Source: Alphaproteobacteria bacterium
Lineage (GTDB): Bacteria > Pseudomonadota > Alphaproteobacteria > Micavibrionales > Micavibrionaceae
NCBI GenBank assembly: GCA_028289285.1
Contig: JANQRF010000002.1
Span: 62,001 to 126,000 of the forward strand
Direction: 5' to 3'
DNA length: 64,000 nucleotides
Shown here: positions 39,720 through 53,896 of the stretch, in pieces
Position numbering within the stretch: the stretch's first letter is position 1
Layout: each line of letters starts with the position of its first letter
Position numbers and translations under genes: made by a program
The notes under the pieces: generated by a model
What the model was told of the DNA's origin: nothing
The model's database searches: none
Seen by the model: the letters and a program-made list of their open reading frames with translations, nothing else

Positions 39720-40658
39720 TTACATTGTCGCTTCAATAATTGCCGGGCCGAGAATGACAACAAACAAGGCTGGCAGGAAAAATAAAATCATCGGCACGGT
39801 TAGTTTCGGCGGAAGTGCAGCTGCTTTTTGCTCGGCAATCGACATGCGGATTTCCCGCAATTCATCAGACATAACTTTTAAAGCTTGCGAAATTGATGTT
39901 CCGTATTGTTCTGCCTGAATAAGCGCGGTTGAAAAAGATTTCCCGTATCCGCCGACACGTCGTCCAAAATCACTTAACGCCGTCCGACGGTCGTTCAGCA
40001 TTGCCATTTCGGCTGTGAGAATACCAAGCTCTTCCGCAAGCGTTTCATTATGTTCGGCTGTTTCAGCGGCGACACGGTCAATGGCTTGTTCAATACCGAT
40101 CCCGCCTTGTACGCAGATCACCATCATATCAAGCGCATCCGGAAAGGATGTATTCAGATCTTCCTGGCGTTTAATGCCCTGGTTCTTGATCAGAATGCGC
40201 GGCAGGAAAAACCCACCAAAAATAGCGCCAAGCAGGATCAGCATCTGCATGCCGCCGGATACTTCTTTTTCACCTGCGGCCAGAATGATCATAGCAAAAA
40301 CAACAAAGAAAACAGGTAAGCCAATCATAGCGCCTAAATATTTCATCGGCGCATTTGGATCGCGAATTCCGGCAAGAAGGAGTTGGTCGCGCAGCTTTTC
40401 TCCAAAGCTTCCGAACATTTGCTGCATTTTGAAAAAGCTTGCGACAGAATCTTTAGCGGAGACGGCTTGCTGGCCTTTCTTTTCAAGATCACTTTTATGT
40501 TGCGCCATGAGGTCTTTGCGGCGTTTTTCAATGATTTCCTTATAGCGCTCGCGTCGGCGGGAGCGTTGGATGAATAGTCCAGAGAATACAGCAATCGAGA
40601 CCAACGCTGCGACAATGGTTAGGGGAAGAATAAAATCTGAACCTTCAAGACCAAACAT
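39720..40658 (-). CDS. tadC: Tad pilus inner-membrane protein TadC
   Basis: A 312-residue T2SSF-domain membrane protein. An N-terminal helix is followed by a basic cytoplasmic part (RSRRRERYKEIIEKRRKDL), then two central helices and the F-domain (SFPDALDMMVICVQGGIGIE), and a C-terminal helix FFLPALFVVILGPAIIEA. TadC pairs with TadB as the platform on which the TadA ATPase drives Flp assembly. The gene begins 3 bp after tadB ends and is the last visible gene of the operon. No tadD/E/F/G follow in this window. Confidence 0.92.
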   Translation of the reverse strand: MFGLEGSDFILPLTIVAALVSIAVFSGLFIQRSRRRERYKEIIEKRRKDLMAQHKSDLEKKGQQAVSAKDSVASFFKMQQMFGSFGEKLRDQLLLAGIRDPNAPMKYLGAMIGLPVFFVVFAMIILAAGEKEVSGGMQMLILLGAIFGGFFLPRILIKNQGIKRQEDLNTSFPDALDMMVICVQGGIGIEQAIDRVAAETAEHNETLAEELGILTAEMAMLNDRRTALSDFGRRVGGYGKSFSTALIQAEQYGTSISQALKVMSDELREIRMSIAEQKAAALPPKLTVPMILFFLPALFVVILGPAIIEATM

Positions 40659-40661
40659 ATT

Positions 40662-41648
40662 TTATACCTTAAAGTTAATCATCTGGCGCATGACGATGAT
40701 CCCTAAAAACATCCAAAAAATCGCGCCACCCAAAACAAATTTGCCGGGCGGTGTGATAAAGAGCACTTCAATATAATCCGGGTTAATGAAGTACATGCCT
40801 GTTGCCACCAAGACGGGCAGGGCGCCGATAATCATGGCAGACGCTTTGGCTTCTGAAGACAGCGCATCAATTTTACGTTTTAAACGAAACCGTGCGCGGA
40901 TCATGTTTGCCAGATTGGCCAGCACCTCAGACAGGCTGGAGCCTGTTTGTGATTGAATAGCGACAGCCGTTGCGAACATCTGCATTTCCGGGAGCGGCAT
41001 ACGTTTGGCGCTATTCAGAATAGCCTCTGGCAAGGAGATACCAATTTTTTGTTCATCATAAACGCGGCCCATTTCCTCGCCGACAGGGCCTGTAAATTCG
41101 CGCGCAACCATTTTCACGGCTTCACTGACAGGCATCCCGGATTTTAAAAGACGGCCCATGGAATCAAGCGCATCTGCGAAATCATCCAGGAATTTTTTCT
41201 GCCGACTTTTGGCTTTCATTTTTAAAAAGAGACGCGGCACGCCCATAAACGAAATAATCGCAATTAGAATGGTCATGAGTGTGGATTGACCGGTAATCAC
41301 GGTAATCACAGTCGCAAAAATACCGAAAATGGCAGAGCCAATCCAGTATTGCTTGACCGTAAAACTCATCCCTGTCTGCAAAATAAGCTGCGGGAGAACG
41401 GCGCCTTTTTCGGCTTTTTCGACTTCTCCTGCCTCTTTAAGCTTTTTAGCCAGGTCCGCACGGCGTTGATCTTGTGCGTTAACTTTACTTTTCTTGTCCT
41501 TGTTTTCATGCTGTCCCTGCACGACGTTCAAAATACGTTTGCGGCGGTCGGACTGGATTTTCAAAACACCGGCTACAACAAAAACAATGACACCGATCCC
41601 GATCACGGTGCCAAGCAAAATCATGATGGCCATGCTGCTTCCGCTCAT
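40662..41648 (-). CDS. tadB: Tad pilus inner-membrane protein TadB
   Basis: A 328-residue T2SSF-domain membrane protein. An N-terminal helix (AIMILLGTVIGIGVIVFVV) leads to a basic stretch, two helices near residues 100-145, the F-domain (DDFADALDSMGRLLKSGMPV, SQTGSSLSEVLANLANMIR), and two C-terminal helices. It forms the assembly platform with TadC, 3 bp downstream, and is 3 bp after cpaF, so the three are tightly co-translated. Confidence 0.92.
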   Translation of the reverse strand: MSGSSMAIMILLGTVIGIGVIVFVVAGVLKIQSDRRKRILNVVQGQHENKDKKSKVNAQDQRRADLAKKLKEAGEVEKAEKGAVLPQLILQTGMSFTVKQYWIGSAIFGIFATVITVITGQSTLMTILIAIISFMGVPRLFLKMKAKSRQKKFLDDFADALDSMGRLLKSGMPVSEAVKMVAREFTGPVGEEMGRVYDEQKIGISLPEAILNSAKRMPLPEMQMFATAVAIQSQTGSSLSEVLANLANMIRARFRLKRKIDALSSEAKASAMIIGALPVLVATGMYFINPDYIEVLFITPPGKFVLGGAIFWMFLGIIVMRQMINFKV

Positions 41649-41651
41649 AAA

Positions 41652-43220
41652 TTAGTCCTCGTCATAAGCTTCTTCCATGGCTTCAAGAACCATTTCATGA
41701 ACACCGAACTGGCGGGCATTGTCCCAGAATTTCGGACGAATGCCCGAAGATTTGAGTTTTGTAATCAGCTTACCGTTTTCATCTTCGCCGAGAAATTCAA
41801 GAACAAATAGATCCTGCATAGTGACGACTTCACCTTCCATACCTGTAATCTCTGAGATATGGGTGACTTTCCGGGATCCATCACGCAAACGTTGTACCTG
41901 GATAATCACATTCACGGCAGAGGCAATCTGTTCCCGCACGGCAACAGTCGGTAAGTTGAGGCCGCCCATCGCGATCATATTCTCCATCCGGGAAATGGCT
42001 TCGCGCGGATTGTTTGCGTGCACAGTACCCATTGATCCATCGTGACCTGTATTCATCGCCTGAAGAAGATCAAAGGCTTCGGGGCCACGTACCTCGCCGA
42101 CGATAATACGTTCGGGGCGCATCCGCAGGCAGTTTTTAACGAGGTCCCGCATGGTAATCTCGCCAACGCCTTCCAGGTTCGGTGGGCGTGTTTCCAGGCG
42201 CACAACATGTGGCTGCTGGAGCTGCAATTCACACGCATCTTCGCAGGTGATAATCCGCTCACCCGGTTCGATATATCGGGTCAGGCAGTTCAACATTGTT
42301 GTTTTCCCGGACCCAGTTCCGCCGGAGATCAGGGCATTCACCCGGCACCGGCCAATCGCCATGATCAGCTTGGCTGCACTTGGCGTCATGGCGCCGAATT
42401 CCAAAAGTTTATCAAGGGTCAGCTTATCTTTTTTAAATTTCCGGATGGTCATGCACGCGCCATCGACAGCCAGCGGCGGGATAATCGCATTTACACGCGA
42501 ACCATCAGGCAGGCGCGCATCACAAATCGGAGAAGATTCATCCACGCGTCTTCCGATCGCGCCAACGATACGCTGACAGATTGTCACAAGATGCTGGTTG
42601 TCACGAAATTTAATGGAGGATTTTTCAATCTTTCCATTCACTTCAATATAAGTGATATCCGGACCATTAATCATGATGTCGGCGATGTCGTCACGCTCTA
42701 AAAGCTCTTCTAAAGGGCCAAAGCCAAGCATATCATCGCCGCATTCCTTGGCGATTTTTGTGAGTTCCACAGGCGTGAGATCAAGATTACGAAAGCGGGC
42801 AATTTCCTCAACGGCGCTGCGTACTTCCTCACGCGCTTCTTCTGCTTTCATGCGGGCAAGGGCTTTGAGATCAATCCCGTCCCGCAAGTCTGCCCAGATC
42901 CGGTTACGCGCGCGCTGCAGACGCATGGAGGTCATAGAGTTATCGTCGCCTGCAGCTTCTTCCTCTTCTTCCTCATGCAAAAGCAATCCGTCATCAATCG
43001 AGGCAGGTGGGTCTTTTTTTGCTTCCGGTGCAGGCGGCGCTTCGACAGGCTCAGCTTTTTCCTGCGGCGCAGGGGCTTGTTCCTGCACCTCTTCTGTTTT
43101 TACGTCCGGGGCTGGTTCCTGTTCTTCTTTGTCCGGTGTGTCTTCAGGTGTGCTGACTGGTGACGGGGTTTTTGCACCGCTGGCAGGTGATTTTGATCCT
43201 GTCGATTTTTTCCCAAACAT
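41652..43220 (-). CDS. cpaF: Tad pilus assembly ATPase CpaF/TadA
   Basis: A 522-residue secretion ATPase. The core starts near residue 105: an N-terminal helical domain, then GGTGSGKTTMLN (Walker A, near residue 300), ITCEDACELQ (Asp box), GEVRGPEAFDLLQAMNTGHDG (Walker B/His box, quoted in part). It powers both extension and retraction of Tad pili in Caulobacter. The first 100 residues are an unusual Pro/Glu/Ala-rich, strongly acidic extension with a run EEEEEEAAGDD, predicted disordered. Three base pairs separate it from cpaE and tadB. Confidence 0.95.
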   Translation of the reverse strand: MFGKKSTGSKSPASGAKTPSPVSTPEDTPDKEEQEPAPDVKTEEVQEQAPAPQEKAEPVEAPPAPEAKKDPPASIDDGLLLHEEEEEEAAGDDNSMTSMRLQRARNRIWADLRDGIDLKALARMKAEEAREEVRSAVEEIARFRNLDLTPVELTKIAKECGDDMLGFGPLEELLERDDIADIMINGPDITYIEVNGKIEKSSIKFRDNQHLVTICQRIVGAIGRRVDESSPICDARLPDGSRVNAIIPPLAVDGACMTIRKFKKDKLTLDKLLEFGAMTPSAAKLIMAIGRCRVNALISGGTGSGKTTMLNCLTRYIEPGERIITCEDACELQLQQPHVVRLETRPPNLEGVGEITMRDLVKNCLRMRPERIIVGEVRGPEAFDLLQAMNTGHDGSMGTVHANNPREAISRMENMIAMGGLNLPTVAVREQIASAVNVIIQVQRLRDGSRKVTHISEITGMEGEVVTMQDLFVLEFLGEDENGKLITKLKSSGIRPKFWDNARQFGVHEMVLEAMEEAYDED

Positions 43221-43223
43221 GAT

Positions 43224-44456
43224 CTATTTCTTTCCGAGGAGCCCGCCGAGTAATCCACCGGATTTTTTGACTGGCTCCTCTTCTTCGCCGCTTTGACCTT
43301 CGATGATATCGCTGATAAGCGGCACAAGGCTGTCAATAATCTCCATCCCTGCTTTATCCTCAGACATTGGGCGGCCGTCTGCTTCTAAGCCAATAAACAT
43401 ACCTGAATTAAAAGGTACAAAGACACTCGCTTCACGATCCATGGCGGTAGAGATGTCCCCGCGCGGAACTTCGCGCCCCGCGGCAAAACCCTGCATGTTG
43501 ACCACCAGTTCAATGCCGCTATCTGCTCCACCGTGCAGGGTTTTGATTTCACTGATAAGGGTTCGTGCACTGCGTAAAGAAGATAGGGCAGGTGTTGTCA
43601 CGACAAATGTTTTATGTGTTTTGTTTAACACCGTGCGTTTTAAAGAAGGCACGGAAGAAGATAAATCTGCCACCACGACCGGGTAGGCAGCCATCATCGA
43701 ATCCAAAAGCGCTTCATATTGCTGGGCCTGCACGGTGGCATCTAAAAGCGGTTCAGCCCCCGTGGCCAGTATGTGAAGGCGCTCCGTCTTTTTATTGATC
43801 ATGCGCGATAGCGTATCTTCATCAGCCATAGCCGCAGCACGCACAGCCTCATTTTGTGATCCGCCAGGTTCAAAGGCAAAAGAGACACTTAAAGATGACC
43901 AGCCCCCGGCAGCATCCATTAAAAAGGTTTTTTGTTTGCGTTTTTCCGTACAGGCAAGTGCGACGGCTTGTGCAATCGCAGAGGTGCCGACGCCACCTTT
44001 TGCACCAATCACGCTAATCAAGCGGCTGTCTGTTGTGCCCAGATTTTCGATGAGTGTTGAGGCGATCACTTCCCCTAAAACATCCTGCGCGACCGGTTTG
44101 ACCAGATAATCCTGCACGCCCATGGAGGTTAGGCTGCGATAGAGATTCACATCATTGACCGGGCCGATAATGATCGCATTCGTGCCTTCCGCGCAGTTAC
44201 CTGCAAGTGCACCAAGGCGCTCGATAAAACTTTCGTCTGTTGTATTCGTTTCAATTATCACAAGGGTCGGTGAGGCGCTTTGGCCGTACATGTTAATTGC
44301 GGTTTCAACATCGCCGTCATGAACGCTTACATTCACGCGCGCAAAGCGCCAGTCTTCGCTGAGCGCTTTGGCTGCTTCACTTGTTGCGCCGTCTTTCAAA
44401 AAAAGATCAACGCCTGCTGTTGGAAGCAAGATCTGCGTATGTGTTGCCTCTGTCAT
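43224..44456 (-). CDS. cpaE: pilus localisation ATPase CpaE/TadZ
   Basis: A 410-residue MinD/ParA-like protein. Residues 1-135 are a receiver-like domain without clear phosphoacceptor logic; the deviant Walker A GAKGGVGTS is at 151-159, followed by QKTFLMDAA. In Caulobacter CpaE goes to the pole ahead of the secretin and positions pilus assembly. A Gly/Leu-rich tail SGGLLGGLLGKK ends the protein. AAGGGC precedes the ATG. A GCCGCC/GGCGGC hairpin lies at 44471-44490 in the 50-bp gap from cpaD. Confidence 0.92.
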   Translation of the reverse strand: MTEATHTQILLPTAGVDLFLKDGATSEAAKALSEDWRFARVNVSVHDGDVETAINMYGQSASPTLVIIETNTTDESFIERLGALAGNCAEGTNAIIIGPVNDVNLYRSLTSMGVQDYLVKPVAQDVLGEVIASTLIENLGTTDSRLISVIGAKGGVGTSAIAQAVALACTEKRKQKTFLMDAAGGWSSLSVSFAFEPGGSQNEAVRAAAMADEDTLSRMINKKTERLHILATGAEPLLDATVQAQQYEALLDSMMAAYPVVVADLSSSVPSLKRTVLNKTHKTFVVTTPALSSLRSARTLISEIKTLHGGADSGIELVVNMQGFAAGREVPRGDISTAMDREASVFVPFNSGMFIGLEADGRPMSEDKAGMEIIDSLVPLISDIIEGQSGEEEEPVKKSGGLLGGLLGKK

Positions 44457-44507
44457 GCCCTTATTACCTTGCCGCCATTTACACGGCGGCGACCTCCTTG
44501 CTCTTGT

Positions 44508-45161
44508 TTAATCTTCCTGCGTGCCCCAAACAGCCAGATCTCCACTTGTGCGTGCACCTGCAACGCCCTGACGCGCATCAATAACATTCGTATCACGGCG
44601 CCCGTCTGCATGCTCTGTATGATCCACGCCGCGTAAATCTGCAGGCCGGGCTATCTGGCGGGCGATATTTGTTTCAATCGCGCAGCCAAAGCGATAATTT
44701 GAGACATCTGAGGTCACGTTATAATCATACATGCCAGGCATTTCGTTACAGGAGCTCGGGCCCTGCACGCCGACTGTATCAAAGGCCACCATCAAAGCAG
44801 GTTCCTGCCCGTCAACGGGGAGCGTCTGTGTCGTCAAATTATGAACGCCTTTTTTCTGCAGGCGTGAAGACAGATCAGCGAGCGTATTGACCGCCTTCAT
44901 CGCTGTGAAGTCTTTATCAGAAGGATCATAGGTCATGGTCAGCTCAACAGGCCCGTCACCATATTTGCGCACCTGTTCAGCCAGAACATTTAAGTAGGAT
45001 TCATCAACCGTTGTGAGTTCTTGTCTATCCAGAACGCTTTGTTCAACCAGCTCGGCGCGGTTTGCGTTTACCATGCTCGGCATAGTGTCTCCAAGACGGC
45101 CGCAGCCGGTCAGAAGAGTTGTGCCGATCAAGGCACCTAAAAGAATATATATGTGTTTCAT
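44508..45161 (-). CDS. cpaD: pilus biogenesis lipoprotein CpaD
   Basis: A 217-residue outer-membrane lipoprotein; the lipobox LTGC ends at Cys20. The CpaD domain contains SSCNEMPGMYDYNVTSDVSN and GCAIETNIARQIARPADL, quoted in part, both conserved in Caulobacter CpaD. It is thought to assist secretin assembly. I chose the ATG at 45161, which has GGGGAG at an ideal distance; a TTG 15 bp upstream would destroy the signal peptide. Downstream of cpaC with an 18-bp gap. Confidence 0.88.
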   Translation of the reverse strand: MKHIYILLGALIGTTLLTGCGRLGDTMPSMVNANRAELVEQSVLDRQELTTVDESYLNVLAEQVRKYGDGPVELTMTYDPSDKDFTAMKAVNTLADLSSRLQKKGVHNLTTQTLPVDGQEPALMVAFDTVGVQGPSSCNEMPGMYDYNVTSDVSNYRFGCAIETNIARQIARPADLRGVDHTEHADGRRDTNVIDARQGVAGARTSGDLAVWGTQED

Positions 45162-45179
45162 GGATGTTCTCCCCAAACC

Positions 45180-46688
45180 TTAATCAATCAAATATCCAAA
45201 AGAGCCCGTATCCTGCAGCAGGCTTTCCGGTGCGCGGTCGCCATAGACACGGCGCAGCGTGTTGCTGAATGTCTGTCCCAGCACGTTTGGTCTTTGGACA
45301 GGTGTATCCGGTGTGTAAGGTACATATGGGGCATCTTCTTCCAGCGCTCCCGGTGGTAGCGGCGGGATAGACGGCATAGAAGGCATATTAGAAGGCGCTG
45401 CATCTGCCTGATTAAGCGCAAACGGCTCTACCAGATAAGGCGTAATCATCACGACCACTTCGGTTTCTTCGCGGTTAAACGTATCTGATTTCAACAGATC
45501 GCCAATCACCGGCATATTACCGACACCCGGTACCTGGTTCAGGCCGGAAACAGTATCTGCGCTGATCAGACCAGCAATCATCAAGGTGGCGCCGCTGGCC
45601 ATTTCAACTGTTGTCTGCGCGCGGCGGACGTTAAAGGCCGGAATACTGAGCCCGTTCAATTCAAAGTCATTTGAAAAATCTGTTGCAGAAATTTCTGTCG
45701 AGATTTCAAGACTGATCCGTTCTCTGGACATGACCACCGGGCGGAAATTCAAGGACACCCCGAACGGCTCAAGCGCAAAACCGATATTCCCCTGGTTATC
45801 AATTTCAGACGGAACAGGGACGCGTCCACCCGCCAGAAAGCCTGCCTGTTCACCTGAAATAGCGGTCAGGTTTGGTTCTGCCAGTGTGTTGACAATGCCT
45901 TCTTCTTCAAGTGCGCGGACGACTGTTTGAAGCGGTCCAAAGTTACTTGTCAGATAGTTAAGGGCTAAAACACCCATTTGTACAGGAGCCGTCAAGCCAA
46001 GAGCGTTTGCAGCTGTCAAAGATGAGGTCAGCTGACCGGAATTTTCCTGGTAGCTGGTTTCAACGCCAAGCTCTTTAAGCGAGTTGCGCTGAGCCTCAAC
46101 GATTTTCACGCGCAACATGACTTGCTGTTCTCCGCGGACATTGAGCATATTGGTAATAACTTCATCGACACTGCCCGCATCTGCGCCCTGAATTTCAGCG
46201 ACATATTGGGCCACGATGTTTGAAATACGGTTTGCTGTGACGGGTGTGGAGACATCCCCGGTGAGAACAATCTGATCTGTCAGGGCATTGATCTGAACTG
46301 TTTCATGCGGGTAAAGCTCATTGATCATGGCTTCCAGTTTTTCCGTATCCATCTGAACATGGATATTCATGCGCTTCAGCACATTGCCTTGTGCATCTAA
46401 AACCATGATGTTTGTTTCCCCAAGATTGGTGCCAACAAGGTAAAGACGGTCAGAGCGCACGGCCATGACATCGACAACACTTGGATCTGCAACCAGAATG
46501 TCGGAGACATCACCGCTAATTTCAACCATGTCGGCTTTCCCGAGCATCAAATTGATATTCGGCGTTCTATGCGTCAGGCCAAGAAAGGCTGGATTTCTTT
46601 TATCCGCAAAAGCATCTGCGATCGGCAGGATGAGCATTGCTGCCAGAACCAGAAAGGCCGTTAAGATGCGCGTGTGTGTATGTGTCAT
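45180..46688 (-). CDS. cpaC: Tad pilus secretin CpaC/RcpA
   Basis: A 502-residue outer-membrane secretin. Signal peptide to about residue 28, N-terminal BON/pilus-type domain (DPSVVDVMAVRSDRLYLVG), then the secretin domain with AEPNLTAISGEQAGFLAGG and the closing VPGVGNMPVIGDLLKS. A Pro-rich tail of about 60 residues follows (SMPSIPPLPPGALEE). I chose the ATG at 46688 because AAGGTG lies before it; the GTG at 46697 is inside that Shine-Dalgarno. It forms the pore for the Flp pilus. Confidence 0.93.
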   Translation of the reverse strand: MTHTHTRILTAFLVLAAMLILPIADAFADKRNPAFLGLTHRTPNINLMLGKADMVEISGDVSDILVADPSVVDVMAVRSDRLYLVGTNLGETNIMVLDAQGNVLKRMNIHVQMDTEKLEAMINELYPHETVQINALTDQIVLTGDVSTPVTANRISNIVAQYVAEIQGADAGSVDEVITNMLNVRGEQQVMLRVKIVEAQRNSLKELGVETSYQENSGQLTSSLTAANALGLTAPVQMGVLALNYLTSNFGPLQTVVRALEEEGIVNTLAEPNLTAISGEQAGFLAGGRVPVPSEIDNQGNIGFALEPFGVSLNFRPVVMSRERISLEISTEISATDFSNDFELNGLSIPAFNVRRAQTTVEMASGATLMIAGLISADTVSGLNQVPGVGNMPVIGDLLKSDTFNREETEVVVMITPYLVEPFALNQADAAPSNMPSMPSIPPLPPGALEEDAPYVPYTPDTPVQRPNVLGQTFSNTLRRVYGDRAPESLLQDTGSFGYLID

Positions 46689-46713
46689 GACGTTCACCTT
46701 TTTAAAAGAGCGG

Positions 46714-47604
46714 TTATTGCGCTACTTCTCCTTCAATATCTTCTATGGGTTCAATTTGACGTACGGTGATGTTTTCAACGGCGTCACCGTTATAAATCCG
46801 GATCATGTTGGCACTGCCGCCATTTTCAATCCGGGCAAGGTCTTTTAAGACCTTTGAGGTTTTTGAATCCGTTGTAAGCGTGCGTTTCGTGCTTTTTGTA
46901 TCATCACCAATGCCGCGTAAAGAAAGCGTCAGATCCCCCATCTCAGAGACGAGTGCCAGTTTTTGGGCATCATTGGGTGCAACCTCAAGCGTGATCGTAC
47001 GCGCAACCTTGGCTTTATCTTCTTCGCGTTTAGCTGTCTGGTCGATCGCCAGAACGCGGACATTCTCTAAAATTGTTTCTGAGGCGTAGCGGTTAATCAT
47101 GGAAGCCACTTCCGCATCATCACGGTTCCGGACACGTACCTTGTGCGTGAGAATCACATCAACATAATCGCCCGGGCCGACAAATCCGCCGACCATGCTA
47201 CGGGCTTTGACGCTAATCGCAACAGCGCGCATGCCTTCACGCAATGTCACGGCCAGAAAATTTCCTTTGCCGTCACCTGCCAGCATATCCGGGTGAACAG
47301 GTTGGCCTGCGCCAAGTGTAAAGAGAACTTTTCCACTTGCGGCATCTAAAACACTCTGATCATCTTTGCGTTTAATTGCGCCTTTAAACAGAGCTTCTTC
47401 CGGCCAGACCTGCCATTTCAGATCGGCTTCGGTTAAATCTTTGCCAAGTTTGATATCGCGCGCTGCGACAAGAATTTCAGTCTTTTTAATTGCTGCAACA
47501 GGTTTAGGGTCTTCCTTGCCGCCCATCATGGATGACATCAGCACAACAAGCAAAATGACGACCAGAAATCCGCCAGCCAGAATGATCAATAGATTCTTGT
47601 TCAT
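46714..47604 (-). CDS. cpaB: Tad pilus protein CpaB/RcpC
   Basis: A 296-residue protein with one N-terminal membrane helix (LLIILAGGFLVVILLVVLM), an SAF domain (ILVAARDIKLGKDLTEADL) and the RcpC/CpaB domain (MRAVAISVKARSMVGGFV, GDYVDVILTHKV). It stabilises the secretin in the periplasm. AAGGAT lies 8 bp before the ATG. It is the first gene of the cpaB-C-D-E-F-tadB-tadC operon; a terminator separates it from cpaA, so it probably has its own promoter in 47605-47740. Confidence 0.92.
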   Translation of the reverse strand: MNKNLLIILAGGFLVVILLVVLMSSMMGGKEDPKPVAAIKKTEILVAARDIKLGKDLTEADLKWQVWPEEALFKGAIKRKDDQSVLDAASGKVLFTLGAGQPVHPDMLAGDGKGNFLAVTLREGMRAVAISVKARSMVGGFVGPGDYVDVILTHKVRVRNRDDAEVASMINRYASETILENVRVLAIDQTAKREEDKAKVARTITLEVAPNDAQKLALVSEMGDLTLSLRGIGDDTKSTKRTLTTDSKTSKVLKDLARIENGGSANMIRIYNGDAVENITVRQIEPIEDIEGEVAQ

Positions 47605-47742
47605 GCGTTTTATCCTTTTTACTAAAAGCCGGGTAGAAATACTCTTTTATGTGCGGGACCAGAAACAGCAGAATTGCAGGCCCTTTAAGGGCTATCCCAC
47701 TCTCAACTTAATCCAGAGATGTTAAAAAACTCTAAAATTTTC

Positions 47743-47778
47743 TTTGTATTTTCAGCCTTAAGCTCTTGAGAATACAAA
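47743..47778 (-). terminator. terminator between cpaA and cpaB
   Basis: TTTGTATTTTCA (47743-47754) and TGAGAATACAAA (47767-47778) are complementary at 11 of 12 positions. On the minus strand the stem is followed by GAAAATTTT. It ends the flp-cpaA message. The rest of the 188-bp gap (47605-47792) shows a short GCCC/GGGC hairpin at 47680-47692 and a 7-of-8 CtrA-like box at 47722-47736. Confidence 0.55.
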
Positions 47779-47792
47779 ATAATTACATAATA

Positions 47793-48317
47793 CTAAAATG
47801 TGAGATACCCGGCATGTACAAAGCCCATGATTGCGCCAAACGCAATCGCGGTTCCATAAGGAATTGCGCCATTACCACCCTGGAGCCCGTCAATCCAGCT
47901 TCCGGGCGTAGCGGCCTTAAAAGGCTTTGTTTTTTGGATAATAAGCGCGGCCAGGCCTAAAACACCACCAAAAACTGTCATATAAAATAAAAAGGCTGGC
48001 AGGCCGCTTAAGCCCACCCATATGCCGTACACGCTGGCCAGTTTGGAATCACCCGCGCCCAGCAATTTCAGGCTGTATAAAATCACTGTCAGGACAAACA
48101 TAATCCCACCTGCCATCAGATGGGAGGTTATGGCGTGAAACACGCGCACGTCTTCAGAGACGTAATCCAGCCCGAAGGCAAGTGCGAAAAGCCCTAAGAC
48201 ACCGATACTGTGCAGGTTCGGGATTTTCAGGCCTTTCAGGTCCGTCCAGCCCGAGGCCAGCCCGATTACAAGGGCCCCGATGGAGCAGAGTAAAATTATG
48301 AGCGGGATCATCATCAA
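47793..48317 (-). CDS. cpaA: prepilin peptidase CpaA/TadV
   Basis: A 174-residue, six-helix aspartic prepilin peptidase of family A24. The two catalytic aspartates are Asp26 in TDLKGLKIPN and Asp90 in GAGDSKL (GxGD motif). It lacks the N-methyltransferase domain of PilD, as usual for TadV/CpaA. It cleaves the Flp prepilins. The gene follows flp after a terminator hairpin, and precedes the cpaB operon. Confidence 0.9.
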   Translation of the reverse strand: MMMIPLIILLCSIGALVIGLASGWTDLKGLKIPNLHSIGVLGLFALAFGLDYVSEDVRVFHAITSHLMAGGIMFVLTVILYSLKLLGAGDSKLASVYGIWVGLSGLPAFLFYMTVFGGVLGLAALIIQKTKPFKAATPGSWIDGLQGGNGAIPYGTAIAFGAIMGFVHAGYLTF

Positions 48318-48331
48318 ACAGTCAAAAGAAA

Positions 48332-48368
48332 GGCCTGCGAAGCATATATATCTTCGGCAGGCCCTCTT
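48332..48368 (-). terminator. terminator after flp
   Basis: On the minus strand GGCCTGCCGAAG pairs with CTTCGCAGGCC across an ATATATATG loop (48332-48363), followed by TTTCTTTT. It lets the pilin be expressed above cpaA. Confidence 0.75.
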
Positions 48369-48384
48369 TTAAATAAGTTTAAGA

Positions 48385-48561
48385 TTAGTTAGTTGCGTCG
48401 CCGTCCAGAGCACCTGTCAGGTCGCTAAAGAGCGTACCGAGGTCCTCACCAAACGCAAAAACAGAGGCAACGATCACGAGGGAAATACCCGCTGCGATCA
48501 GGCCGTATTCGATTGCTGTGGCGCCGTCTTCTTTTTTCAAGTAAGCAAGAATTGTTTTCAT
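48385..48561 (-). CDS. flp: Flp/Fap pilin, main copy
   Basis: A 58-residue type IVb prepilin. Processing site Gly13/Ala14, mature N-terminus ATAIEYGLIA with Glu at +5, then a hydrophobic helix and a short polar C-terminus. I chose the ATG at 48561, preceded by AAGGAG at ideal distance; upstream in-frame codons to 48612 are not pilin-like. It is the major pilin candidate because it opens the Tad locus and has its own CtrA-type promoter and terminator. Confidence 0.92.
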   Translation of the reverse strand: MKTILAYLKKEDGATAIEYGLIAAGISLVIVASVFAFGEDLGTLFSDLTGALDGDATN

Positions 48562-48615
48562 ATCTAAAGTCTCCTTCATAGGTTTCCAGCTAAGTTTTTT
48601 CTTATTTATCATTTC

Positions 48616-48633
48616 CGGTAATTCAAATTACCG
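48616..48633. promoter_or_regulatory. inverted repeat in the flp leader
   Basis: CGGTAAT (48616-48622), TCAA, ATTACCG (48627-48633): a perfect 7-bp repeat between the flp -10 element and its start codon. It could be an operator or a leader hairpin. Confidence 0.4.
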
Positions 48634-48650
48634 CAAATCACTCATACCAG

Positions 48651-48681
48651 AATATAGCACACGCTTTTAAAAAGGTCTTAA
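48651..48681 (-). promoter_or_regulatory. flp promoter with consensus CtrA box
   Basis: TTAA-N7-TTAA (48667-48681) is a full CtrA consensus. On the minus strand TATATT (48651-48656) follows it by 10 bp, so the box covers the -35 region, the usual place in CtrA-activated promoters. The rest of the gap 48634-48785 is AT-rich with nothing else I can name. Confidence 0.55.
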
Positions 48682-48785
48682 AAAAAGATACAGTTTTATT
48701 ATTTTCTATAATTAAAAACAAAGACTTAGACAAAAATATCTCTCAAATTTTATCTATCTGCAAAGATAATATGAAAAACAAATAG

Positions 48786-49292
48786 TTAGGCATTTTCCTG
48801 TGCCTGTGGTTTTTCTGCAGGAAAGCCATATTGATCCAGTGGCAACTTGCCGCTCACTTCCTTGCCCCATTTTTCCTCCATGTCTTCATGTATCTTTTCG
48901 ATCTCCTTGATTCTGGCTTTACCGCGCTCAAGCACGATAGAAGTTGTAATGTTCGAAACTGCCCATTCAATCATGTAGCCGATGGCTGCAGAAAAATACA
49001 TGACAACAATGGTCCGTGGTTGCGTCATAAACATCACTGCATTTTGGAAGTTATGGCCTTGTACCCAAAGCTCTAGAATAAAAGGAAGGCATCCGGCCAG
49101 ATTCATGGCGCCGACGGTGAGTGCTTTCAGTTTTCCACGGGAGCGATCGATGAGCAAAGCAACAAAAGTCGGCAGCATGCCAATGCCCAGCATAAAGCTT
49201 GTCGGCAAAAAGACGATCGCCATGGCAACGGCGGCCATCAAGATAATACGTCCGCGCCAGCTTAATTTCGTTTTTTTGCGTCTATGTGGCAT
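48786..49292 (-). CDS. small inner-membrane protein of unknown function
   Basis: A 168-residue protein with a basic N-terminus (MPHRRKKTKLSWRGR) and about four hydrophobic helices between residues 14 and 115, then a charged helical tail (ARIKEIEKIHEDMEEKWG) in the cytoplasm. No family recognised. It begins 3 bp after the pseudokinase gene and is certainly co-transcribed with it; the membrane part may be a partner of the kinase-like protein. Confidence 0.7.
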   Translation of the reverse strand: MPHRRKKTKLSWRGRIILMAAVAMAIVFLPTSFMLGIGMLPTFVALLIDRSRGKLKALTVGAMNLAGCLPFILELWVQGHNFQNAVMFMTQPRTIVVMYFSAAIGYMIEWAVSNITTSIVLERGKARIKEIEKIHEDMEEKWGKEVSGKLPLDQYGFPAEKPQAQENA

Positions 49293-49295
49293 ATC

Positions 49296-51377
49296 CTAAA
49301 GCTCCACCATAACTGTAAAAGCAATCACAAGGGCTGCAACAAAACATGAAATGATTGCCGCCACAGTTCTGCCTGTAGATTGCCCGAAGGTTGGATCTTT
49401 TTCGATTCTGAGCTCCAGTGTTTTTTGTTCTTTATCCAAAAGAAGATAGTGTTTCATTGCTTCTCTATACTCATCGTAATCACGTGTGAATAGCTTATCA
49501 TTGTCGAAAAGCGCTAAAAGTTTTGTCAGGTCTCCTGATTGTTTTATTTTTTCAATATTTTCTTTAAGTTTTACACGCCTTATACGGCTGTGAATATGGG
49601 CATAGACAGGCTCCATTGCATCAGCGATCCATTTTGCAACGCCTTTAAACTTTTCCATTTTGAATTTTCGCTGAATGGCTTCCAGCACTTTAAGTTCAGC
49701 CATGACAACCTGAAATTCATCTGGAGATTGAAGATCATGTAAAAATCTTTCAACAATTTTTGAATCTTTAATAGATAAAAAGGCAACGGAGTGGCGATCA
49801 AAAAATCGTAATGGTTTATCTGCCCGGCTGGATATCTTTTCAAAAGCCCGGATCATATCTTCTGCATTACGGACATAAAACCCGTTTAACTTACTGCTTA
49901 GGCAATGCGACTCCGGATTAAGATAATAAACACAGCGTTCAAGTCCATATCCGATTTGTTTTTGTTTGATGTATTTTCTACACGTGCCAAAGCGATTTGT
50001 AAGTGAGCTGATATCTAATCCTGCACCATTGTGCATATCTATCCATTGCATCACAAAAAAATTGGCGATCAAATCATGATAACTTTGCGGGTTGGATTTA
50101 CGGATGATAGCATTGCTTAGAGATTTCCCAATACCATCTGGAAAGACGCGCAATTCTCTGTAACGGATAGGCGCTTCAGGATGAAGAGCGATTGATAAAC
50201 GTGTGGCCAGCCTGTCCGGATAATTGGAATCGCGTCCACCTTCTTGAGCAAGACCATAAGCGCGTTCATAGTTTTCGAGTAAAATTTTGCTTTCAGTGGC
50301 ACGTTTTATCCATTGAAACATATCATCATTTTCAACGCATTCTACAAGAGCAACCGGGTCTTCTGCGCTGTTATAAGCCACTAGTTCGGGTAAAGAATAT
50401 TTCTGTCCCCCGATAATAATCGGGCGTTTGGCTTTTATTTTTTTGCCCGGCGGTTTATTGGTCAGACGTTGTCCTTCCAGCCAGGCTTCAACATCTTCCA
50501 GGGTCCAGCGTTGATTTACATCATCAAATAAAAGCCCACGCATGAGTTCGAGAATAGAGCCTCCAAATCTATCCTTGGAAATCAGGGAGCTAAATGTTCC
50601 GTGTTCCATTTTATGTTGGATTATTTCCCGGTCGCTTAGGCCTTCCATGGGGTCATGTGACCTCAATAACACGGCAAGCGTTACACCGAATGAATACATG
50701 TCATCTTCAAAGGTGCCGACACCGCGTCCGATCGGGTCCGCCATCGCCCGCTCAACTGTTTCATAAAGGGCCGGCATATCGACACCGCAAGGCAAAGACA
50801 GGCAATCTCCAAATGCAATACTCTCAATAGATTGCGCTTTTTGACGGCCGAATAAATTGCCGGGGCGGATAGCGCCGTGAATAAGATCTTTGTTACGCAT
50901 ATCGGTAAGTGCGCTAACAAGGGGTTGGACAATTGCGCTTGTAACGATTTCGGGTTTTAAACCCAGCGCAATAGATGCCGTGTCGTCTTTAACTATAGGA
51001 GTCAAATTATTGTCTTCATAAAGAAACACATAACATTGTTGTTTATCTTGCGGCCAGTCGATCACACCCTTTGTCACCAATCTTGGCAGACAAGGGTTGA
51101 TCAGTGTGGCATAGCTTGAAGCCTTATTCGTGCGCGGTGAATATTGAGGATGACAGATAAGAGCATAGAGCTTGGAGGGCGCTTTTCCCGATCCGGTTGC
51201 ACCATAAGCTTTTACAGGGCCGCGATCCAGGTGCGGTAAAGGCTGTGAAGGAAAAATGGTAATATGATCATTGAACCGCACACTGCTTGCAGAGGCAGCT
51301 GGTTTTTCGGGCGCGCTTTCTTCTGGCGCATCGGCGGCGCTGTCTGCGCCTTCAATCTGATCTTTCTGATCTTCCAT
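49296..51377 (-). CDS. membrane-anchored protein-kinase-like protein (pseudokinase)
   Basis: A 693-residue protein: Ala/Glu-rich disordered start, kinase-like domain over about residues 55-320, a long helical region, and one C-terminal membrane helix (VAAIISCFVAALVIAFTVMV). The fold is visible from DDMYSFGVTLAVLL (kinase subdomain IX) and NQRWTLEDVEAWL (XI). The catalytic loop reads HGAIRPGN at 167-174 instead of HRDLKPEN, so the catalytic Asp is Ala; no VAIK-type Lys is seen; the DFG position reads FGD. It is therefore probably catalytically dead. I chose the ATG at 51377; a GTG at 51440 lies inside the purA terminator. Confidence 0.65.
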   Translation of the reverse strand: MEDQKDQIEGADSAADAPEESAPEKPAASASSVRFNDHITIFPSQPLPHLDRGPVKAYGATGSGKAPSKLYALICHPQYSPRTNKASSYATLINPCLPRLVTKGVIDWPQDKQQCYVFLYEDNNLTPIVKDDTASIALGLKPEIVTSAIVQPLVSALTDMRNKDLIHGAIRPGNLFGRQKAQSIESIAFGDCLSLPCGVDMPALYETVERAMADPIGRGVGTFEDDMYSFGVTLAVLLRSHDPMEGLSDREIIQHKMEHGTFSSLISKDRFGGSILELMRGLLFDDVNQRWTLEDVEAWLEGQRLTNKPPGKKIKAKRPIIIGGQKYSLPELVAYNSAEDPVALVECVENDDMFQWIKRATESKILLENYERAYGLAQEGGRDSNYPDRLATRLSIALHPEAPIRYRELRVFPDGIGKSLSNAIIRKSNPQSYHDLIANFFVMQWIDMHNGAGLDISSLTNRFGTCRKYIKQKQIGYGLERCVYYLNPESHCLSSKLNGFYVRNAEDMIRAFEKISSRADKPLRFFDRHSVAFLSIKDSKIVERFLHDLQSPDEFQVVMAELKVLEAIQRKFKMEKFKGVAKWIADAMEPVYAHIHSRIRRVKLKENIEKIKQSGDLTKLLALFDNDKLFTRDYDEYREAMKHYLLLDKEQKTLELRIEKDPTFGQSTGRTVAAIISCFVAALVIAFTVMVEL

Positions 51378-51497: not shown

Positions 51498-52790
51498 TTA
51501 AAGGCTGAATGGGTCTTGCATCAAAATAGTGTCTTCACGCTCCGGACTGGTGGAGAGCAAGGTAACGGGCGCACTGATCAGCTCTTCGATATGTTTAACA
51601 TATTTCACTGCTCCAGCAGGCAGATCGGCCCAGCTGCGCGCACCTTCCGTGCTTTCACTCCAGCCTTCAAATGTTTCATAGATGGGCTTTAAAGATGCCT
51701 GCGCCTGCTGGCCGGAGGGGATATAGTCGATTTTTTCACCGTTCAGCTCATACCCTGTACAGATTTTAATTTCCTCAAACCCATCCAGAACGTCCAGTTT
51801 GGTGAGCGCAATACCGTCAATACCGCCTGTCTTGATAGATTGCTTGACAAGCGCAGCATCGAACCAGCCGCAGCGGCGTTTGCGCCCGGTTGTCGTGCCA
51901 AATTCATGTCCGCGCGTACCGAGCTTTTCACCGACTTCATTCTCCTGTTCCGTTGGAAACGGACCTGCGCCGACACGCGTTGTATATGCTTTCGTAATAC
52001 CAAGTACATAGCCGATATGGCGTGGGCTGATACCGGCGCCTGTTGCGGCCTGCGCGGCGCAGATATTGGAAGAGGTGACAAACGGATAAGTACCGTGATC
52101 GACGTCCAGCATCATGCCCTGCGCCCCTTCAAAAAGGATTTTCTTACCTGTATTCTGGGCATCATCCAGGGTTTTCCAGACAATATCCGCATAGGACAGA
52201 ATCTCGGGCGCAATATCCTGCAAGTCTTTAAAGATAGCTTCATGATCCAGCTCTTCTGCGCCCAGACCTTTGAGCAGCGCATTATGATGCGTGACCAGCC
52301 TTTCCAGTTTTTCTTTTAAAATGTCCGGTTCTGCAAGGTCACAGACGCGGATTCCCCGCCGCGCGACTTTATCTTCATAGGCGGGGCCGATCCCGCGTTT
52401 GGTTGTGCCGATCTGGCCTTTCCCGCGTGCGGATTCTGCTGCGCCGTCCACGGCGGAATGGCAGGGCAGGATAAGTGTTGCGTTTTCAGCAAGCTTTAAG
52501 GTGGCCGGGGAAATTTCTACGCCTTGTTCCCGCACAGTCTCTATTTCTTTTAAGAGCGCCCACGGGTCGACAACGACCCCATTTCCGATCACAGAAATTT
52601 TCCCTGGCCGGACAATACCGGACGGCAGGAGATGTAGTTTATAAACCTTTCCATCAATCACCAGCGTGTGGCCTGCATTGTGACCGCCCTGAAAACGCAC
52701 AACCACATCGGCGCGGCTGGACAGCCAGTCAACGATTTTCCCTTTTCCTTCATCTCCCCATTGGGATCCGATCACTGCAACATTTGACAT
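51498..52790 (-). CDS. purA: adenylosuccinate synthetase
   Basis: A 430-residue enzyme of normal length. [16 protein letters not shown] near residue 8 is the GTP-binding/catalytic signature with Asp and Lys, [11 protein letters not shown] holds the catalytic His, and [16 protein letters not shown] is the second signature. It makes adenylosuccinate from IMP and aspartate, the first committed step to AMP. It lies 17 bp after hisZ, an arrangement common in alphaproteobacteria. GGAGG precedes the ATG. Confidence 0.97.
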
Positions 52791-52807: not shown

Positions 52808-53896
52808 TTAAATTTTCCGTTTCACACAAAGCCCGTCATCCTGCGCGGCCCTGATCTCTTTCCAGCCTGCAGAAGCAGGCAGTATTTTAGTTTTTGGCGC
52901 GTCCTGTTTTGGCAAGGCTGGTAACAGGCTATCCATATAAAGCGTAAAGCCGGTAGCGCTTTGATCCTGGGCTTTTTCCGAAAGGGAGTAACGTCCGCCG
53001 CCGCCAAGCTCGCCGCGCACATCTTTGGAATAGAGTGTAAAGCTGATTCCGGTTTCATATTCCAGGCCGCGATGTTCCACCAGGTCAACCGTGATCTGCG
53101 CCTCAATTTCATAGGCAGCCATACCGTCTTTCAGGTCGGCGCACATCTCCTGAAGGGTTTCAATGTCTTTTAATATCTGCCCGTCCAAAGAAAAAGATTT
53201 TAGTTTTTCAAAAGCGCTTTCTTCAGGGCCGCATACTTCCAGTAAAGCGCTTAAAAGATCGGTTGCCTGCGAGGAAATACCACCAAGCGCATTTTTATCT
53301 TTTTGGGAAAGTGCCGTTTCCATCTCTTCTCTTTGTTCCTTGGGAACGCTGTAATGTTCAAAAATATGGGAGATCAGCATTGGTACAGTCAGATCAATCG
53401 TCATATTTTCTATGCCGATTTCTTTTAAAGCTGCAAGTGCAATCAACGCGATTTCGGCATCACCCTGCGGTGTATGCGCGCCGATCATTTCACATCCAAC
53501 CTGGACGAATTGCCGCGCTGGGCGAATCTGCGTGCCGTTCACACGCAGCACATCGGCAGCATAAGACAGGCGCAAAGGCCGCTCCTCCCCGGCAAGACGC
53601 GAATCTGCAATGCGAGCGATCTGCGCCGTCGTGTCGGCCCGCAAACCCATCATGCGCTGGCTGAGCGGGTCCATCAGGCGGAACGTCTGGCGGGCAAGCG
53701 CTGCGCCCGGGCCAGGGCTTAGCAAATGATCTTCAAATTCCATCAGCGGCGGTTTGACGCGGTCATAGCCAAAACGCGCAAAAACATCCATGACTGTGGT
53801 GATCGCCTGCGCCTCGCTTTGCGCATCGGGCGCAAGAAGGTCGCTCAGGCCGCTAGGCAGCAGGGCTGCGTGGTCTTGTTCACTCATTCCGGTCAT
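52808..53896 (-). CDS. hisZ: ATP phosphoribosyltransferase regulatory subunit HisZ
   Basis: A 362-residue class II aminoacyl-tRNA-synthetase-like protein related to HisRS. Motif 2-like FRLMDPLSQRMMGLRADTTA and ADVLRVNG are visible, written in part; the anticodon domain is missing, as in HisZ. It combines with short-form HisG (not in the window) to make ATP phosphoribosyltransferase and confer histidine feedback. Start is at 53896 or the internal ATG at residue 4. Only 10 bp separate it from the divergent WecA-like gene. Confidence 0.9.
   Translation of the reverse strand: MTGMSEQDHAALLPSGLSDLLAPDAQSEAQAITTVMDVFARFGYDRVKPPLMEFEDHLLSPGPGAALARQTFRLMDPLSQRMMGLRADTTAQIARIADSRLAGEERPLRLSYAADVLRVNGTQIRPARQFVQVGCEMIGAHTPQGDAEIALIALAALKEIGIENMTIDLTVPMLISHIFEHYSVPKEQREEMETALSQKDKNALGGISSQATDLLSALLEVCGPEESAFEKLKSFSLDGQILKDIETLQEMCADLKDGMAAYEIEAQITVDLVEHRGLEYETGISFTLYSKDVRGELGGGGRYSLSEKAQDQSATGFTLYMDSLLPALPKQDAPKTKILPASAGWKEIRAAQDDGLCVKRKI

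Follow-up and report, generated by a model that had tools for sequence, protein, structure and literature searches.

What does a kinase fold do once it can no longer phosphorylate? This question is raised by PsK, a protein encoded in the window (the whole 64,000-nucleotide stretch of an alphaproteobacterial contig that we analysed). The PsK family could reveal an answer, as it has a constant partner gene and many natural variants, and as no Hanks-type kinase besides PsK was detected in the window's genome. A preliminary description, made from the sequence alone, had presented the protein as a membrane-anchored pseudokinase that may be a scaffold or sensor in surface or pilus control. Our analysis upheld the pseudokinase, the membrane anchor and the link to a small membrane protein (SMP), and spoke against the tie to pilus control. 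We consider it probable, if well short of certain, that PsK is a catalytically dead Hanks-type pseudokinase that forms an inner-membrane scaffold together with SMP. Scaffolding is the likeliest function of PsK, and a sensor role may also apply.

Fold, membrane anchor and catalytic residues of PsK

In an AlphaFold2 model of PsK based on 71 sequences (mean pLDDT 91.3, pTM 0.85), residues 30–304 adopt a two-lobed Hanks-type kinase fold, and structure searches with Foldseek and VIA returned the same fold. The top Foldseek match of this domain was PknA (E 3e-7). The best 50 VIA entries were kinases or pseudokinases throughout (Z 20.8–23.0), with WNK3 first (Z 23.0, rmsd 2.8 over 250 residues) and PknA at Z 21.9. 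Structure prediction compared with Ser/Thr kinases, the check that the preliminary description had proposed, thus bears out the kinase fold that had been recognised there. By sequence, Pkinase was the only Pfam match of PsK up to E 1, at 25.4 bits and below the cut-off of 31.7, and NCBIfam gave no match above its cut-offs for either PsK or SMP. WNK kinases lead the VIA list by about 1 Z unit over PknA; in PsK, beta 2 has no fixed basic residue close to the WNK position, K56 being Lys in 36 and Arg in 7 of 71 members.

The disordered head, long helical region and C-terminal membrane helix that had been described also appear in the model, at residues 1–28, 305–660 and 666–692, respectively, the second of these being mostly helical by DSSP. 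We compared 71 family members in an alignment (A2) that 70 of 80 loci entered, 10 having been dropped for length or a contig end; a smaller alignment (A1) held the window and 15 further loci. All 71 members carry a hydrophobic C-terminal segment by hydropathy, and 4 of them carry a second segment elsewhere. Because this segment is universal and a median of only 6 residues (maximum 14) follows its best hydrophobic window, we take PsK to be tail-anchored. Within the helical region, C492 and D527 are invariant in the 71 members, and R528 (64/71) and H529 (68/71) are nearly so.

We call PsK a pseudokinase because two residues have been lost, the beta-3 Lys and the HRD Asp. The HRD motif of the window protein reads H167-G168-A169, and Asp occupies position 169 in none of the 71 members; Lys is likewise absent from positions 72–75 in every member. 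Both losses, an Ala for the HRD Asp and a missing VAIK Lys, had been noticed in the window protein, and both extend to the family. The DFG motif, which had been described as rearranged, is a different matter. Pairwise BLAST against one canonical relative placed AFG of PsK on DFG, which is the register of the preliminary description, whereas hhalign profile–profile alignment with three relatives (L142, L144 and L145) aligned G190-D191 with the Gly-Asp of GDFG and left the motif ungapped. Under the first register, Asp is found at position 188 in 0 of 71 members; under the second, Asp or Glu is found at position 191 in 68 of 71. From these alignments we favour the profile register, in which the metal-binding acid is probably D191, and the rearrangement of DFG is accordingly doubtful.

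Features of the PsK locus, in window coordinates
Feature	Coordinates	Strand	Basis
PsK, tail-anchored pseudokinase, 693 aa	49296..51377	(-)	ORF from ATG 51377; fold; 71-member family alignment
PsK disordered head, residues 1-29	51291..51377	(-)	AlphaFold2 pLDDT <50 at residues 1-28
PsK kinase-fold domain, residues 30-304	50466..51290	(-)	VIA Z 20.8-23.0; Pfam Pkinase 142-296
Degenerate catalytic loop HGAIRPGN, residues 167-174	50856..50879	(-)	Alignment with HRDIKPGN in relatives
DFG-equivalent AFGDCL, residues 188-193; probable acid D191	50799..50816	(-)	hhalign register; BLAST gives other
PsK helical region, residues 305-660	49398..50465	(-)	DSSP on model; column counts
PsK C-terminal membrane helix, residues 666-692	49302..49382	(-)	Model helix; hydrophobic C-terminal segment 71/71
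SMP, small polytopic membrane protein, 168 aa, PsK partner	48786..49292	(-)	ORF; AlphaFold2 pLDDT 93.4; co-occurrence
purA, common upstream neighbour	51498..52790	(-)	Pfam
hisZ, common upstream neighbour	52808..53896	(-)	Gene cluster; Azospirillum annotation
Tad pilus genes (Flp, CpaA to CpaF, TadB, TadC)	39720..48612	(-)	ORFs; CpaA by Pfam Peptidase_A24

SMP and its pairing with PsK

The SMP gene starts 3 bp downstream of PsK, a spacing that had been reported and that the open reading frames confirm. Its product had been described as a four-helix membrane protein, which is fair, given that it has three hydrophobic stretches, the first of which (residues 10–50) is long enough for a hairpin. 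Among 63 members of the SMP family we counted three such stretches in 34, two in 19, four in 8 and one in 2; the SMP alignment (A3) included 62 of 68 listed proteins, with L112, L121, L122, L127, L138 and L139 left out. The last helix of the SMP model (pLDDT 93.4) spans residues 92–142 and, at 51 residues, is too long for a single membrane crossing. Structure searches with SMP reached at best a Foldseek E of 4.5 and a VIA Z of 5.4, a PDB sequence search up to E 1 was without a match, and the window's SMP had no Pfam match above any cut-off. We set aside EMC3_TMCO1 as an assignment for SMP, as 3 of the 63 members match it weakly (best E 0.00035), which we take to be chance.

To begin with the nearest genomes, PsK was found in 56 and SMP in 55 of a kin set of 58 (the window's own included), and PsK is therefore not a chance reading frame. 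Single-protein queries in this set found PsK without SMP in G015 and G045, and SMP without PsK in G052. Profile searches of an even sample of 385 alphaproteobacterial genomes found PsK in 131 and SMP in 133, and every one of the 131 genomes with PsK also had SMP. The two genomes with SMP but no PsK match were G089 (84% complete) and G103 (75% complete). In 124 of the 131 genomes the SMP gene lies no more than 400 nt downstream of PsK in the same orientation, with each gene counted at a single place per genome and, for multi-copy genomes (for example G190, G331, G332, G361 and G409), at neighbouring places. The link between the two proteins is thus stronger than had been stated. The two matches lie on different contigs in the remaining 7 genomes. 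G359 (6 contigs) and G275 (40 contigs) both leave room around each gene and have no partner beside it, so these two genomes hold both genes although they are separated.

Copy number also varies. Tandem PsK–SMP pairs occur in G190 and G332, and extra lone copies were found of SMP in G071 and G203 and of PsK in G153 and G373. The extra SMP genes without a PsK neighbour are L147, L148 and L149 (G071) and L163 (G203), and L148 adjoins a gene for a hybrid histidine kinase. Given such lone copies, SMP may have partners other than PsK.

The distances of the two proteins are also correlated. Over the 40 of 80 loci that carry all four genes, PsK and SMP distances correlate at 0.92, with a partial r of 0.75 after the purA distance is removed, compared with 0.37 for PsK–HisZ and 0.18 for SMP–HisZ; pairs of loci are not independent, and these figures are descriptive. 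The contrast is smaller among the 25 near loci alone, for which the partial r was 0.68 for PsK–SMP, 0.49 for PsK–HisZ and 0.33 for SMP–HisZ. Joint vertical inheritance would also yield both the adjacency and the correlated distances.

Named records with PsK come from Micavibrio, Thalassospira, Terasakiella, Telmatospirillum, Tistlia and Azospirillum, and several of the named loci nearest to the window's PsK bear the Micavibrio label. In 299 genomes from across the phylum, matches outside the class were partial only: they had their centre in the kinase domain and extended no further than profile position 406.

In the scaffold that we favour, the tail helix of PsK would pack against the long last helix of SMP, and the kinase fold and helical region would lie on the cytoplasmic side, where other proteins could dock. 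Binding of a nucleotide or metal, through the retained catalytic-loop Asn and the probable Asp or Glu at the DFG position, may act as a switch, and protein phosphotransfer by PsK seems unlikely. It is possible that the PsK–SMP pair serves a motility or envelope machine.

Gene neighbourhoods, flagella and the Tad pilus

A survey of gene neighbourhoods, which had been suggested as a check, supported the pairing with SMP and revealed a further common neighbour, and it largely confined the link to Tad genes to near relatives. Of the 76 loci that allow a judgement, 68 have purA upstream of PsK in the same orientation within the stretch available, and the hisZ cluster is present in 44 of 80 loci. 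In one Azospirillum plasmid record the order is hisZ–purA–PsK–SMP, with hisZ annotated as an ATP phosphoribosyltransferase regulatory subunit. On a 919-kb plasmid of Azospirillum ramasamyi (L167), the pair is preceded by a sensor histidine kinase gene and not by purA.

One candidate for the machine is the flagellum, which PsK might serve directly or by placing it in the envelope. We regard this as possible but unlikely. FHIPEP-family proteins (FlhA and relatives) were matched in 118 of the 131 genomes with PsK, compared with 103 of 254 without it, an association that ignores relatedness and involves a family that also includes type III secretion proteins. In G190, two PsK–SMP pairs lie just upstream of an FHIPEP gene; in the window's genome, however, the FHIPEP match is about 136 kb from PsK. 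Moreover, 13 genomes have PsK without an FHIPEP match, including 9 with a completeness of 95% or more, and 6 genomes with PsK lack matches to both FHIPEP and TadE.

The second candidate is the Tad pilus, of which PsK would be a regulator or assembly factor. In the window, as had been noted, Tad genes lie beside PsK, downstream of the PsK–SMP pair on the same strand; their names other than CpaA are presumed from the sequences. Among the Tad genes near PsK we counted Flp and Cpa proteins and, on the strength of one scanned member each, the TadE and Tad/VWA clusters. We then divided the loci into 49 near loci, chosen by number and similarity and not by taxonomy (L061–L106, L113, L115 and L133), and 31 others. 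Of the near loci, 42 could be judged: Tad genes follow PsK–SMP in 35 of them, and the other 7 show none despite at least 5 kb of visible sequence; of the remaining near loci, 4 show less sequence and 3 have no SMP in the stretch. By contrast, Tad genes were found in 1 of the 31 other loci, all of which were counted whatever their flank length, some being short. This difference leaves a general pilus role for PsK unsupported. Across the 385 genomes, a TadE match was present in 69 of the 131 with PsK and 97 of the 254 others, a co-occurrence slightly above chance (odds ratio 1.8, p 0.009, relatedness ignored), and was missing from 62 of the 131.

With so many PsK genomes lacking TadE and a single one of the other loci linked, we rejected PsK as a component of the Tad system in general, and give little credence to its being a regulator or assembly factor of that system. 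The case for pilus control made by the preliminary description is weak on the same counts, and on that of the seven near loci free of Tad genes. Tad is a local, lineage-specific neighbour, and no more than that, in the window's relatives.

The surroundings of PsK vary in other respects. In the window, 173 bp alone (48613–48785) separate SMP from the Flp gene, and many near loci have genes of the TadE and Tad/VWA clusters between SMP and Flp or CpaA. The window's genome has 2 TadE matches. Among the 31 other loci, a sigma-70-family cluster is present in 19 and a pseudouridine synthase cluster in 25 (one member of each was scanned), the sigma-70-family neighbour being rpoH in an annotated Azospirillum record. 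In the tandem locus of G190 (L151; G190:C2:121000-134000), the PsK–SMP pairs and the FHIPEP gene are followed on the same strand by a MotA/ExbB-family gene and a sigma-54 activator gene.

Possible enzyme activity, known pseudokinases and signalling context

Some residues of the PsK kinase domain are strongly conserved. H167, G190 and D226 are invariant in all 71 members, the catalytic-loop Asn174 is kept in 69, and R82 (68/71) is the sole basic residue of the small lobe among the near-invariant columns listed. Judged by conservation, R82 and the acid at position 191 may leave room for an unusual enzyme activity. PsK could be a divergent enzyme with another use for a nucleotide, such as the transfer of AMP or glutamate by SelO or SidJ, and HG likewise replaces HR in E. 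coli SelO (Table 1 of PMC12599244). However, SelO and SidJ keep the beta-3 Lys according to the same table, whereas PsK has none at positions 72–75 in any member, and the conserved residues, including N174 and the acid at 191, perhaps serve the fold alone. We find such an enzyme improbable, and the catalytically dead scaffold remains our preferred reading.

EssB carries a domain beyond its membrane helix, whereas PsK ends just past its own, with no more than 14 residues following its best hydrophobic window; PsK further differs from EssB/YukC in the large helical region before the membrane helix and in its SMP partner. The two are nevertheless comparable in principle, in that EssB/YukC has a cytoplasmic, degraded kinase fold within a membrane protein and is described as a non-catalytic scaffold of type VII secretion (PMC12599244), and PsK too is a membrane protein with a kinase fold of degraded motifs.

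The same 2025 review counts seven bacterial pseudokinase families and calls bacterial pseudokinases little explored by experiment (PMC12599244). Going by the descriptions given there alone, PsK does not match any of the seven, ActPs1, ActPs2, CP1 and DYD included. The nearest by description is the GLW family of Proteobacteria, in which GLW replaces HRD, beta-3 is a poly-Leu/Trp motif and a transmembrane region follows the kinase domain (PMC12599244). PsK shares the last of these traits (71/71 by hydropathy). However, GLW occupies the HRD position in 0 of 71 members, and beta-3 of PsK mostly reads [FY]AL[VI]C, with the poly-Leu/Trp motif in none of up to 60 strings inspected by eye. DLHK pseudokinases, as described in the review, keep the HRD Asp, are fused to a helicase and lack a transmembrane region (PMC12599244); PsK differs in each respect, as it lacks both the HRD Asp and a helicase and ends in a membrane helix. 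The pseudokinase domain of MviN (ActPs3) is portrayed as a membrane-linked recruitment platform that needs PknB and the FHA protein FhaA (PMC12599244), whereas the window's genome yielded neither a further Hanks kinase nor an FHA protein.

The last comparison bears on whether PsK might act on another kinase. In the window's genome, PsK was the sole match to Pfam Pkinase up to E 1, and searches for FHA and PP2C_2 proteins up to E 0.1 gave none. Because none of these was detected, it is unlikely that PsK steers a partner Hanks kinase or is read by an FHA protein here, and for this genome we rejected both roles, as partner of an active Hanks kinase and as FHA-recruiting scaffold. In 38 kin genomes, the window's own among them, a kinase other than PsK exceeded the Pkinase cut-off only in G039, G040 and G041, and 13 of the 38, most of them PsK-bearing, have no Pkinase match at E 0.001. 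As the Pkinase model overlooks PsK in many kin genomes, other very divergent kinases could be missed too. An anti-phage role was set aside because PADLOC matches to the kinase parts of MkoA, mad6 and PD-T4-6 were weak (best 26.5 bits) and housekeeping genes are the usual neighbours.

Apart from the review PMC12599244, no title or abstract opening that we retrieved points to the PsK/SMP family. We hold as plausible, if short of probable, a wider reading in which PsK–SMP is an undescribed two-protein membrane module, near-universal in Micavibrio-like bacteria and common in Rhodospirillales, whose kinase fold was turned into a membrane scaffold or nucleotide-gated switch before these lineages split, in cells without detectable Hanks-type Ser/Thr signalling. 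If the pseudokinase reading is true, the label 'serine/threonine protein kinase' in two annotated Azospirillum records is misleading.

We examined five outside proteins with the longer matches to PsK (L141–L145), of which L143 is from within the class. Three of them, L141, L144 and L145, are canonical kinases with a helical region after the kinase domain, and these gave the best kinase-domain scores of the five (E 1.9e-18 to 3.1e-15, Z fixed at 100,000); in contrast to PsK, they keep HRD and DFG intact, and the likeness of their helical regions to that of PsK is weak (E 0.015 at best, Z fixed at 100,000). The alignment of L142, L144 and L145 with PsK had an hhalign probability of 99.5%. L142, a distant relative of PsK, is a kinase–helicase fusion with the motifs AVLT, HRDLRPS and GFG, which is the DLHK motif set in Table 1 of PMC12599244, and its likeness to PsK after the kinase domain is weak. 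L142 (G570) and L143 (G614) both combine a kinase fold with a DUF4011/AAA_11 helicase, and L142 also has a REase_MTES_1575 end; in NCBIfam and PADLOC the two best resemble the anti-phage proteins ProA, Hhe and PDC-S37, with scores under the NCBIfam cut-offs. Among the kin genomes, G041, which is 73% complete and has no PsK match, encodes two strong Hanks kinases.
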